A stretch of DNA of 36,171 nucleotides, from NCBI RefSeq assembly GCF_000759435.1, contig NZ_JRJG01000136.1, forward strand, positions 1-36,171, given 5' to 3'. The DNA comes from Hoeflea sp. BAL378 (GTDB lineage Bacteria; Pseudomonadota; Alphaproteobacteria; Rhizobiales; Rhizobiaceae). Positions 5,890-9,327 of this stretch are shown here, piece after piece. Positions within the stretch are counted from its first letter, which is position 1; each line of letters opens with the position of its first letter. The translations under genes were made by a program, and so were the position numbers. The notes under the pieces are model-generated. The model had not been told where the DNA came from, searched no databases, and was given only the letters and a program-made list of their open reading frames with translations.

Positions 5890-6743
5890 GCAGGCGACCT
5901 GGCAGGCGACCCGGCACGCGACCTGGAGGTGGCGATTGCCCAGAGGCCGACAGCCAGCATCGGCAGCGACAGCAGCATGCCCATGGTCAGCCATCCGCCG
6001 GCGAGATAGCCGATCTGCGCGTCCGGTTCGCGGAAGAACTCGACGAAGATGCGCGCCAGCGCGTAGCCGCTGACGAAGACCCCCGAGACGAGGCCCGGAC
6101 GTTTGAGCGCATCCCGGCGGTGGATCAGCCATGCCAGCACGGCGAGGAGCAGGAGCCCTTCCAGCCCGGCCTCGTAGAGCTGGGTCGGGTGTCGCGGGAA
6201 GGGGCCGCCGGTGGGGAACACCACCGCCCAGGGCATGTCGGTGAGCTTGCCCCACAATTCGGCATTGATGAAATTGGCGAGGCGTCCGAAGAACAGGCCC
6301 ACCGGCACGACCGCGCAGACCACGTCGAACAGGTTGAACAGCGGGATCTGGCGCTTGCGGGCGAACAGGATCATCGCGGCCAGCGTGCCCAGCAGTCCGC
6401 CGTGGAAGGACATGCCGCCGTTCCAGATCTCGAGCGCCCGGACGGGGTTGGCCGCAACTGCGGCAAAATCATAAAACAGGATGTAGCCGATGCGGCCGCC
6501 GGCGACGATGCCGATGGTGGCCCAGATCAGGAAGTCGTCCATGTCGAGCGCGGTCATGCGCGACCCGGCCTGGGGCCAGAGCCTGCCGTTCTCCACCAGC
6601 CGCCTCGCATAGCGCCAGCCCAGCAGGATGCCCATCACATAGGCCAGGCCATACCAGCGGATATGCACCGGGCCGATCGAGAAGATCACCGGATCGATCT
6701 CCGGAAACGTGATCAACGACAGCAATGTCGCGGTCTGCTCCAA
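5886..6743 (-). CDS. lgt: Prolipoprotein diacylglyceryl transferase
   Basis: An inner-membrane enzyme of 285 residues that transfers diacylglycerol from phosphatidylglycerol to the lipobox cysteine of prolipoproteins, the first step of lipoprotein maturation. The Lgt signature GRLANFINAELWG is intact, along with the MSFHGGLLG segment holding the essential histidine, IRWYGLAY near the N-terminus and about seven hydrophobic helices. The start is TTG at 6743, since no suitable in-frame ATG precedes the first helix and AGGAAGGAAG lies at the right distance upstream. It heads the minus-strand block and overlaps the methyltransferase gene by ATGA. The shared upstream region with ubiK is described separately. 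Confidence 0.95.
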   Translation of the reverse strand: MEQTATLLSLITFPEIDPVIFSIGPVHIRWYGLAYVMGILLGWRYARRLVENGRLWPQAGSRMTALDMDDFLIWATIGIVAGGRIGYILFYDFAAVAANPVRALEIWNGGMSFHGGLLGTLAAMILFARKRQIPLFNLFDVVCAVVPVGLFFGRLANFINAELWGKLTDMPWAVVFPTGGPFPRHPTQLYEAGLEGLLLLAVLAWLIHRRDALKRPGLVSGVFVSGYALARIFVEFFREPDAQIGYLAGGWLTMGMLLSLPMLAVGLWAIATSRSRAGSPARSPA

Positions 6744-6996
6744 TGCGGCTTCCTTCCTGCATGGCTTGCCGCCGGTGCGGCCGGCAAGGGTTCCGTCACG
6801 GCCATACCGTCACGGCTTCAAGGCGATTTTCCGGCGGATGCGCCGCTTGATTTGCCCCCTGACATGGCATGCGGGCTTTGCGCAAGGCTTGCGGACCCGC
6901 GCTTTGGCTTGCAACTTATCGTCCGAACGCTTAACTCAAAGCCTGTGACAGCCAGCAGCAACTCTCCGGGGCAAACCCGGCGCAGGGATGAAGACC
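6744..6996. promoter_or_regulatory. Divergent lgt / ubiK intergenic region with direct repeat and hairpin
   Basis: This 253-bp spacer must hold promoters for both lgt (leftward) and ubiK (rightward). Visible are a perfect 10-bp direct repeat CCGTCACGGC at 6793-6802 and 6807-6816 (14-bp period) and a hairpin with arms CTTGCCG/CGGCAAG at 6765-6771 and 6782-6788 in the predicted lgt leader. I could not identify a convincing -35/-10 pair. The repeats could be a regulator site; no known box is recognised. Confidence 0.4.
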
Positions 6997-7317
6997 ATGA
7001 ACAGCGGATCGAACCGACTTCTCGATGAACTTGCCAAGCTGATGACCGACGCCGCGGGTGCGGCGCAGGGCGTTCAGCGCGAAATGGAGACCGCCATGCG
7101 CAGCCAGTTCGAGCGGCTTCTCAATTCGATGGATCTGGTCAAGCGCGAGGAATTCGAGGCCGTCCGCGACATGGGGATCAAGGCGCGCGAGGAAAACGAC
7201 GCGCTCTCCGCCCGGCTCGAAAAGCTCGAGCAGTCGCTGTCGGAAACGCCTGCTTCGGACGCTTCCGGGGCGGCAAAGCCCGCCGCGGCCAAGCGCACGC
7301 CGCGCGCCAGGTCCTGA
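6997..7317 (+). CDS. ubiK: Accessory factor UbiK family protein (BMFP / DUF526)
   Basis: A small helical protein of 106 residues. The N-terminal part has the family pattern RLLDELAKLMTDAAGAAQG, followed by a coiled-coil segment with REEFEAVRDMG and a heptad-like run ending near LEKLEQ, then an Ala/Pro/Lys-rich basic tail. UbiK in enterobacteria is a trimeric coiled-coil factor that helps the aerobic ubiquinone biosynthesis complex; related BMFP proteins promote membrane fusion in vitro. ATG 6997 is preferred over ATG 6988 because AGGG sits 9 bp upstream of it, while it directly abuts the earlier one. The role in ubiquinone synthesis here is by family transfer. Confidence 0.85.
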   Translation: MNSGSNRLLDELAKLMTDAAGAAQGVQREMETAMRSQFERLLNSMDLVKREEFEAVRDMGIKAREENDALSARLEKLEQSLSETPASDASGAAKPAAAKRTPRARS

Positions 7318-7342
7318 CCGGCCGATTTCACCGGTTTTTTTT
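7317..7342 (+). terminator. Probable Rho-independent terminator of ubiK
   Basis: ACCGG (7317-7321), a 9-base loop, CCGGT (7331-7335) and a run of eight T to 7342. The stem is short but the T-tract is the best in this region. It begins at the last base of the ubiK stop codon, so ubiK is probably transcribed alone and ybjN needs its own promoter. Confidence 0.55.
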
Positions 7343-7650
7343 GCACAGGTTGTCCACCGCGCCCCGAGGCCCGAAAAGCCTTTTGCGTGAGTCAGTTATG
7401 AGTCACGGCGGAATCACTTTCCCAACTTGGTCCACAGGTTCGCACTGACAAAATGCGACCGGGGGACTGGCGCTCGGACTCTGCATTTATACACTGATTC
7501 TAAATGATGATTCGGAACGGGCGGCAAAGAGCCCCGGCGGAGTCGCAAATGCGCACGCCCTGGGATCGCGGGTGAATCATGCGTGGATGATCTGTTCGCC
7601 GGGTTCCGTTTTAAGCGGTTGCCAGGGCGCTGAAATGAACAAGGTGGGGC
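7343..7650 (+). promoter_or_regulatory. ybjN upstream region with a dense GANTC (CcrM-site) cluster
   Basis: The gap before ybjN has no gene. It holds eight GANTC sites, starting at 7389, 7400, 7411, 7477, 7496, 7509, 7540 and 7574, where about 0.6 would be expected by chance in 190 bp at this base composition. The first three are exactly 11 bp apart and the fourth is 66 bp further, so all four lie on one face of the helix. GANTC is the target of the cell-cycle methylase CcrM, and GcrA reads methylated sites in promoters of Alphaproteobacteria. An inverted repeat TCGCA/TGCGA flanks 7439-7457. Two sequences resembling DnaA boxes with two mismatches lie near 7349 and 7430. Confidence 0.6.
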
Positions 7651-8151
7651 ATGAATCTCAGTAATATCGAATTCGAACGGCACTCCAATCCGGTTGACAT
7701 GATCGAATTCGTGGCGGCTGCGAACGACTGGACGTTCGAGCGCTCCGGCGAGCACGAGATCGCGATGACCGTCGAGGGACACTGGACCGACTACCACGTG
7801 TCGTTTTCCTGGATGGAGGATTGCGAGGCGCTGCACATCGCCAGCGCCTTCGACATCAAGGTGCCCGAAGCCCGCGTCACCGAGGTGATGAAGCTGCTGT
7901 CGCATGTCAACGGCCAGGTGCTGATGGGCCATTTCGACCTGTGGCAGCAGGAACACGTGATCATCTTCCGCCAGTCGCTGCTGCTCGCCGGCGGCGCCGA
8001 GCCGACCAACCGCCAGGTCGAGGTGCTGCTCTCCAACGCGCTCGATTCCTGCGAGGCTTATTTCCAGGCGTTCCAGTTCGTCGTCTGGTCCGGCATGGAC
8101 GCCAAGTCGGCGATCACGGCGGTGATGTTCGAAACCCGCGGCGAGGCCTGA
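7651..8151 (+). CDS. ybjN: YbjN domain-containing protein
   Basis: A 166-residue acidic cytosolic protein of the YbjN family (type III secretion chaperone-like fold). The conserved C-terminal part is visible: a YFQAFQFVVW segment and the GMDAKSAI turn. In enterobacteria YbjN affects stress tolerance and motility, but no molecular activity is known. A strong AAGGTGGGG sequence lies just before ATG 7651. The stop TGA and the proC start are 1 bp apart, so the two genes are almost certainly co-transcribed and translationally coupled. The upstream region carries the GANTC cluster, which suggests cell-cycle regulation of this pair. Confidence 0.9.
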   Translation: MNLSNIEFERHSNPVDMIEFVAAANDWTFERSGEHEIAMTVEGHWTDYHVSFSWMEDCEALHIASAFDIKVPEARVTEVMKLLSHVNGQVLMGHFDLWQQEHVIIFRQSLLLAGGAEPTNRQVEVLLSNALDSCEAYFQAFQFVVWSGMDAKSAITAVMFETRGEA

Positions 8152-8152
8152 G

Positions 8153-8965
8153 ATGATTTCGCCCGCTAGCCCCCTCGTTCTCGTCGGCGCGGGCAACATG
8201 GGCGGCGCCATGCTCAACGGCTGGCTTGAGTCCGGCATCGATCCGGCGGCGATCGTGGTGATCGACCCGAAGACCTCCGACGAGATGTCCCTGAAGCTGG
8301 CCTCGGTGAAAGTGCGCCTGGAAGAGGCAGCACCGGAAGGGCTGGTCGCGGGCGTGCTGGTGCTGGCGGTCAAGCCGCAGATCATGGACCAGGTGGTTGC
8401 GGGGCTGAGCGGCCTTGTCGGGCCTGACACCGTCACGCTGTCGGTCGCGGCCGGCAAGACGATCGCCTATTTCGCCGAGCGCCTCGGCGGCGCCATCGTC
8501 CGCACCATCCCCAACACGCCGGCGATGATCGGCCGGGGCATCACCGGCGCGGTCGCCAATGCGGCCGTCACCGCCGGGGCCAAAGCCGAGATCGACCGCT
8601 TGCTCACGGTCTGCGGCCCTGTCGAATGGGTCGAGGACGAGGCCCTGATCGACGCCATCACCGCGGTGTCGGGCAGCGGCCCGGCTTATGTGTTTTACCT
8701 CGTCGAATGCATGGCGGAGGCAGGACGCAAATGCGGCCTTCCGGCGGACCTCGCCATGCGGCTGGCGCGCGCCACGGTCACGGGGGCCGGTGAACTGATG
8801 CACCGGTCCCCGGACGACGCCGCGACGCTCCGGCGGAACGTCACCTCGCCCAACGGCACCACGGCGGCGGCGCTGGCCGTGCTGATGGCAGACAATGGCA
8901 TCCAGCCGCTGTTCGACCAGGCGCTGAAGGCCGCGGCCGACCGCTCGCGCGAACTGGCCGGCTGA
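8153..8965 (+). CDS. proC: Pyrroline-5-carboxylate reductase
   Basis: Catalyses the last step of proline synthesis, reducing pyrroline-5-carboxylate with NAD(P)H in the cytosol. The 270-residue protein has the Rossmann loop [10 protein letters not shown] near residue 15, the [10 protein letters not shown] segment, [10 protein letters not shown], and the signature region [12 protein letters not shown] followed by [11 protein letters not shown] in the helical dimerisation domain. Length is normal. It begins 1 bp after the ybjN stop and is followed 20 bp later by csaA, so ybjN-proC-csaA look like one operon. Confidence 0.96.
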
Positions 8966-8985: not shown

Positions 8986-9327
8986 ATGACCGAGACCATC
9001 ACCTGGGACGATTTCGAGAAGGTCGACATTCGCTGCGGCACCGTGATCGCCGCCGAAGCCTTCCCGCAGGCGCGCAAGCCCGCCTACAAGCTCCGGATCG
9101 ATTTCGGCCCGGAGATCGGCGAGAAGAAATCCTCGGCGCAGATCACCTTGCATTATTCGCCCGACGAGCTGGTCGGGCGACGGGTGATGGCGGTGGTCAA
9201 TTTCCCGCCGCGCCAGATCGGCCCGTTCATCTCGGAAGTGCTCACCCTCGGCTTTCTCGACGCCGACGGCGCGGTGGTGCTCGCAGGCATCGACAAGACT
9301 GTGCCCAACGGCGCGCGGCTGATGTAG
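8986..9327 (+). CDS. csaA: tRNA-binding OB-fold protein, CsaA type
   Basis: A 113-residue single-domain protein. The family pattern is clear: [12 protein letters not shown] at the N-terminus, [13 protein letters not shown], the KKSSAQIT segment, [18 protein letters not shown], and a C-terminal [10 protein letters not shown]. The fold is the OB-type tRNA-binding domain also found in methionyl-tRNA synthetase C-termini. CsaA from Bacillus binds tRNA and has chaperone-like effects in protein export; the physiological role is unsettled. It is probably the third gene of the ybjN-proC operon and converges with the sensor kinase gene 31 bp downstream. Confidence 0.93.

Follow-up and report, generated by a model that had tools for sequence, protein, structure and literature searches.

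The region analysed here is a stretch of 36,171 nucleotides from Hoeflea sp. BAL378 (the window), in which open reading frames and Pfam matches give the gene order lgt, ubiK/BMFP, ybjN, proC and a gene for a CsaA-like tRNA_bind-domain protein (Table 1). The genes ybjN and proC are probably co-transcribed. Given the gaps of 1 base between these two genes and of 20 bases between proC and the next gene, it is likely that all three lie on a single transcript. Among named relatives the closest are other Hoeflea (L001-L009), whose ybjN is 92-99% identical. A sequence comparison of YbjN with solved structures yielded nothing convincing (best E 0.6). Judged by its conservation, the spacer between ubiK and ybjN is a real and strongly conserved promoter-like region.

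Table 1. Features of the ybjN region in the window. Promoter numbering takes TACACT (7490-7495) as the -10 element and 7502 as +1. Conservation of individual GANTC sites (A to H) was read from an alignment of 57 divergent representatives picked by shared 8-mers.
Feature	Positions	Strand	Description
lgt		-	
ubiK-ybjN spacer, regulatory region	7318..7650	+	333 bp, eight GANTC
Terminator-like hairpin with T-run, after ubiK	7320..7346	+	Weak on its own: one found, mean 0.8 in shuffles
TTGTCCACC, degenerate DnaA-box-like	7350..7358	+	A few bases upstream of the relatives' TGTGGA (about -143)
Site A	7389..7393		GAGTC, -113 from putative start; kept in 55/57 (middle base G 48, A 7)
Site B	7400..7404		GAGTC; kept in 18/57
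Site C	7411..7415		GAATC, -91; kept in 32/57
GTCCACA, DnaA-box-like	7430..7436	+	-72 to -66
Putative weak -35, CTGGCG	7467..7472	+	17 bp from -10; TGG invariant in 13 aligned
Site D	7477..7481		GACTC, -25 to -21, inside putative -35/-10 spacer; kept in 44/57, at -25 in 75/100 regions
Putative -10, TACACT	7490..7495	+	In conserved core 7490-7514; TA[CGT]ACTGA in 100/100 regions
Site E	7496..7500		GATTC abutting -10; kept in 13/57, GATTT in most other relatives
Putative transcription start	7502	+	Placed from the -10 alone
Site F	7509..7513		GATTC in TGATTCG, +8; 57/57 representatives, 100/100 regions
Site G	7540..7544		GAGTC; kept in 7/57
Site H	7574..7578		GAATC; kept in 9/57, gapped in 23
ybjN	7651..8151	+	Pfam YbjN PF10722, E 1.3e-29
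proC	8153..8965	+	P5CR_dimer PF14748; 1 base 3' of ybjN
CsaA-like tRNA_bind-domain protein	8986..9327	+	PF01588; 20 bases 3' of proC

An earlier note on this DNA had drawn attention to eight GANTC sites upstream of ybjN, and all eight are found where it placed them; a ninth lies at 7653, just within ybjN. The enrichment that it claimed is also beyond chance. Dinucleotide shuffling of the spacer (7318-7650), repeated 20,000 times, never produced eight sites (mean 1.28, maximum 7), and mononucleotide shuffling, likewise repeated 20,000 times, produced no more than six in 190 bp. The expectation that it had used, about one site per 310 bp at roughly 65% G+C, needs revision on both counts. The spacer itself has 57.1% G+C, and the real background of the window is only about one site per 680 bp, so that the enrichment exceeds the earlier estimate. 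The whole window has 53 GANTC sites where its dinucleotide shuffles average 179, an approximately 3.4-fold depletion, in line with the avoidance of GANTC described for genomes that carry CcrM (PMC3973325). The proposal that the first four sites stand in helical register did not hold, as the distances of 66 and 88 bp correspond to 6.29 and 8.38 turns at 10.5 bp per turn. The 11- and 22-bp steps do fit this pitch, and the 32-bp step from 7477 to 7509 amounts to 3.05 turns.

A same-genus genome (G001) was sampled for background as 20 stretches covering 393,465 of 4,468,465 bases, two of them placed deliberately at ybjN and hemE, and gave a GANTC density of 1.55 per kb. Relative to this sample GANTC is 7.7-fold denser in the ybjN upstream regions, a value that includes the general intergenic excess because the sample is mostly coding. 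Six GANTC starts within 178 bp were found at ybjN of G001 by a greedy count, and eight within 186 bp when all sites were taken. The sample held one rival cluster, seven starts within 170 bp in the hemE stretch (L166:10129-10303, about 2 kb from hemE, which we take to be mnmE-rho), and three more places with four. In 75 of 80 loci the ybjN upstream region strictly contained the densest 200-bp interval of GANTC in its locus, and in four it was tied.

It could be argued that an AT-richer spacer gathered GANTC by chance or through relaxed avoidance, with no function attached. GANTC is generally commoner between genes than within them (PMC3973325; PMC8725594), and half of the eight sites recur in few relatives. 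Nevertheless, this explanation is hardly credible in view of the shuffles, and it is contradicted by fixed positions in 100 upstream regions and in five of six genomes added later. Further, among the 16 palindromic pentamers of the same form the second most enriched, TTNAA, reached 2.8-fold against the same mostly coding sample, compared with 7.7-fold for GANTC.

The upstream regions were those of 80 named loci, the best of 383, and of 30 loci from further relatives; the search that supplied the latter matched ybjN in 57 of 61 genomes. Removal of 10 exact duplicates reduced these 110 regions to 100 distinct ones, made up of the 80 named loci and 20 of the others, one of which (L110, G051) belongs to another family. 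One region without a start codon at the set position (L105) was kept in the alignment and in the positional counts. The earlier note had suggested aligning relatives and counting GANTC against shuffled sequence; in the alignment, GANTC positions proved fixed across relatives. The number eight itself is not kept, as most relatives outside Hoeflea have three to six sites and four of the 80 loci carry just two in 340 bp. In a tally of positions present in at least four regions, GANTC occurs at -114 to -112 in 95 of the 100 regions, at -91/-90 in 56, at -25 in 75 and at +8 in all. Among the 57 representatives, two sites are near-universal, one is found in most, one in just over half and four in few.

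The manner in which the sites vary is informative. Sites A and D keep GANTC while their middle base and most of the flanks vary (the 44 representatives that keep site D have C in 37, T in three, G in two and A in two), which argues for selection on GANTC itself. Such a pattern would be expected from selection on a CcrM site and not on a fixed word, and it points to the former. At site F the entire context is fixed, and there the two kinds of selection are indistinguishable. In 88 of the 100 regions a TGATTCG, as at site F, occurs between 220 and 100 bp ahead of the start codon. An imperfect inverted repeat of 19 nt (7471-7519 of the window, 74% complementary) spans the -10, and its arms hold sites D and F.

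The alignment of the 57 representatives resolves into two blocks, an upstream module of the form AAAA...GAGTC-NN-TTA...GAATC and the core TTATACACTGATTTTAAATGATGATTCG. The full arrangement of GANTC, -10 and GANTC is absent from 24 of the 100 regions. A consensus scan for sigma70 promoters found none in the ybjN spacer, and the -35 element is therefore weak at best. In four genomes searched, with 150 first-look candidates scored in each, a model of the core matched nothing but the ybjN locus, and a model of the upstream module did the same save for one weak match (E 2.58) in G032. A dispersed element sharing the core was rejected on these grounds. Similarly, a leaderless small open reading frame at ATGATGATTCG was discarded, as its frame is lost soon after the first codons in a reading by eye of every second region, L105 excepted. 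A leader RNA or riboswitch was also set aside, with no Rfam match up to E 1 over positions 6700-8200 and a consensus fold in 14 leaders of only -0.66 kcal/mol. In many relatives outside Hoeflea the core is followed by a conserved stretch resembling AAGCTCCGGGCAGGGT (about 7523-7545), which has no consensus fold.

The same blocks might instead be the sites of another DNA-binding protein whose motif contains GANTC, for example a regulator that recognizes 11-bp GAGTCA repeats, or MucR, which shields GANTC from CcrM; methylation would then be incidental, or the sites unmethylated. Hoeflea has three GANTC at 11-bp steps (7389, 7400 and 7411), and a spacing of 11 bp is typical of tandem winged-helix regulators. 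The TTA that lies 2 bp after site A (conservation about 0.95 per column) and the block from -10 to +12 are conserved as well as the GANTC sites or better, and MucR is reported to occlude GANTC at some promoters of Sinorhizobium meliloti (PMC5172544). However, the middle repeat at 7400 is kept in only 18 of the 57 representatives, and a fixed motif unrelated to methylation would not predict the shifts in middle base at sites A and D. In addition, the functions found under hypomethylated promoters are described as generally not conserved among alphaproteobacteria (PMC5172544). We consider this alternative unlikely.

The spacer also contains sequences resembling DnaA boxes. TCCACA or its complement TGTGGA is present in 97 of the 100 regions, with two or more copies in 56, and the mean number of these hexamers per 400 bp is 1.59, compared with 0.167 for the mostly coding G001 sample. 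They lie mostly at two positions, -143/-142 in 67 regions and -71 to -69 in 70. Orientation is uneven at the first, where TGTGGA outnumbers TCCACA by 72 to 9 between -150 and -137, and uniform at the second, where all 70 read TCCACA. Nonamers of this kind in relatives include CTATCCACA and GTGTCCACA. The DnaA motifs named for Caulobacter are CTCCACA, ATCCACA and GTCCACA (PMC4287350), the last being the form found in the window. An input of DnaA at the putative ybjN promoter is thus probable from these motifs. Beyond the earlier note, the analysis adds the -10 core, the position of a GANTC within the putative -35/-10 spacer, and the pair of DnaA-like sites.

Two readings would place DnaA at the centre. 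An origin of replication was rejected as the main reading of the spacer, because hemE, the usual neighbour of the alphaproteobacterial origin, is separated from ybjN by 0.98 Mb in G001, where the contig measures 4.47 Mb, by 1.14 Mb in G017 and by 1.01 Mb in G032; G000 carries ybjN and hemE on separate contigs. If the origin is at hemE, ybjN would be replicated part-way along a chromosome arm. Such a location would also suit a cis-acting site on the arm that binds or titrates DnaA, comparable in effect to datA or DARS, with the ybjN promoter as a passenger. The two fixed hexamer positions and the hexamer density given above favour a site of this kind, as does the hemE-side end in G001, where TTTTCCACA and CCATCCACA stand beside clustered GANTC upstream of hemE (L166:13351-13410). 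Against this, the hexamers are few per locus at most, the most conserved block is the promoter-like core and not the boxes, and some 2.2 Mb separate ybjN from hemE in G055, which belongs to another family. A titration site is, in our judgement, very improbable. Just upstream of hemE, five same-genus genomes (L114-L118) carry a GANTC triple with steps of 6 and 8 bp, and it is beside this triple that TTTTCCACA and CCATCCACA lie in G001.

The depth of conservation was followed in genomes beyond the position-defining set. Five of six further genomes of the same family have GANTC at -113/-112 and at +8, and their hexamers lie between -148 and -143 and at -70/-69. The -91/-90 site is present in four of these five and the -25 site in three. 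The sixth genome, the 1.5-Mb G200, lacks the core, and the full arrangement of GANTC, -10 and GANTC is missing in three of the six. Among 27 further genomes of the order (five of the same family and 22 of others), the full arrangement was present in five and missing in 22. Three of these five belong to the same family and the remaining two, G048 and G056, to others; 20 rounds of shuffling gave none. Counting G051, which lacks it, the arrangement occurs in two of 23 genomes outside the family. Four of the 27, each from the same family, have the strict core TA[CGT]ACTGA, and 16 have TCCACA or TGTGGA. A scan of the order with the core model matched seven of 199 genomes at E<=0.01, the model's own genome included, and three of these matches span only 19 bases. 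The model gave no match in four of seven same-family genomes, three of which carry the arrangement on direct reading. These are three of the five added genomes with the fixed sites, and the model thus undercounts. On the sequences compared, the element is essentially a feature of the family of the window (Rhizobiaceae), with traces beyond.

Several characterized promoters resemble this arrangement. In Caulobacter, podJ P2 has a CcrM site at -24 in the -35/-10 spacer, to be compared with -25 at ybjN, and motifs of the form (C/A/G)TCCACA lie at -82 in podJ P2 and at -52 and -83 in mipZ P2 (ATCCACA and GTCCACA), to be compared with about -70 at ybjN (PMC4287350). The mipZ promoter also has two juxtaposed GANTC (PMC3667746). 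Unlike podJ P2 and mipZ P2, the ybjN region has as many as four CcrM sites that recur among relatives, DnaA-like motifs at two positions and a TGATTCG at +8, and it precedes a different gene. The ctrA P1 promoter of Caulobacter, activated by GcrA after replication of its locus, has one CcrM site at about -29 and a CtrA half site (PMC4287350), whereas no TTAA-N7-TTAA (CtrA) was found by eye in the window's ybjN spacer. In Agrobacterium tumefaciens, reporters showed that methylation lowers the activity of the gcrA promoter, which has six GANTC within 250 bp, and the activity of the repABC promoter depends on one GANTC (PMC11514494). The A. tumefaciens gcrA promoter is thus a GANTC cluster in a related bacterium, at another gene.

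These precedents bear on how the ybjN promoter might work. Caulobacter transcription starts with a GANTC between -10 and -35 are reported to be activated at 40-60 min of the cell cycle (PMC4287350), and conserved promoter GANTC sites are enriched among the CcrM-dependent genes of this bacterium (PMC3973325). Taken with the effects at gcrA and repABC in A. tumefaciens, the Caulobacter spacer-GANTC promoters make methylation-sensitive control of the ybjN promoter likely by analogy. A promoter GANTC by itself is no proof of control by CcrM, as 904 transcripts of Ensifer that show no cell-cycle regulation have promoter GANTCs (PMC8725594). The TGATTCG at +8 fits the extended GcrA motif YGAKTCK proposed for Caulobacter, a preference reported to be lacking in Brevundimonas (PMC7987155). 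Site E (TGATTCT) fits this motif as well, and site D in the promoter spacer (GGACTCT) does not.

The earlier note had read the sites as a replication-coupled promoter under CcrM and GcrA. The sequence part of that proposal stood, with fixed GANTC positions in relatives and with both GcrA (PF07750, E 9.0e-59) and a CcrM-type C-terminal domain (RAMA PF18755, E 9.6e-18, in a 475-aa open frame) encoded in the genome of the window, but the helical register did not. We regard it as reasonably probable that the spacer holds a sigma70 promoter of ybjN-proC, possibly with the csaA-like gene, tuned by CcrM and GcrA and probably by DnaA in the manner of Caulobacter podJ P2. A weak promoter, CTGGCG-N17-TACACT, would drive the transcript, with CcrM sites in the -35/-10 spacer, at +8 and as an upstream pair near -113 and -91, and with DnaA-like sites near -143 and -70. 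On passage of the replication fork the sites would become hemimethylated and stay so until CcrM acts late in S phase. GcrA with sigma70 would sense how the spacer site and the +8 site are methylated, and DnaA would work from upstream, so that transcription would be coupled to the replication cycle. GcrA as an activator of ybjN is our best guess from the known systems. The fixed methylation sites and initiator-like sites together suggest that ybjN may be switched in step with the copying of the chromosome. The sequences show where the sites lie, that their spacing is fixed and conserved beyond what composition would give, that GcrA and a CcrM-type domain are encoded, and how far ybjN is from hemE in a few genomes. 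From these we infer the promoter and its start point, methylation, the binding of GcrA and DnaA, and the direction and timing of any effect. A bolder proposal would make YbjN an unrecognised cell-cycle protein of Rhizobiaceae under a compound DnaA/CcrM/GcrA promoter that reads fork passage at its locus through at most six fixed sites and would rank with the family's most constrained promoters coupled to replication; we put this forward tentatively and hold it to be rather doubtful.

A search limited to one collection of papers, supplementary tables aside, found no paper joining GANTC and ybjN, and ybjN may already stand unremarked in a published regulon table. The one paper in it that mentions both YbjN and Alphaproteobacteria concerns FliO. 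The tag SMc02676 presumably adjoins proC in S. meliloti and may be ybjN. This tag has been used as a reference gene for qPCR (PMC4702478); should it prove to be ybjN, a steady bulk level of expression would have to be taken into account. A word search of the main text of an S. meliloti paper on CtrA found no GANTC, YbjN or SMc0267x (PMC4433202). The small RNA EcpR1 was considered and dismissed, its locus being divK-pleD/rpmG (PMC4414408). Even close relatives are reported to have strongly different CcrM and GcrA regulons (PMC7987155; PMC11514494), and the CcrM regulon of Ensifer is said to await definition (PMC8725594). A candidate target promoter with positions held across many genera would offer a fixed point for studying methylation-timed control outside Caulobacter, as well as a functional lead for YbjN, whose gene is of unknown function in these bacteria. 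The gcrA gene of the genome of the window (L081) has, in the 400 bp upstream, five GANTC at -183, -173, -164, -151 and -42, a tight cluster that resembles the one at gcrA of A. tumefaciens.
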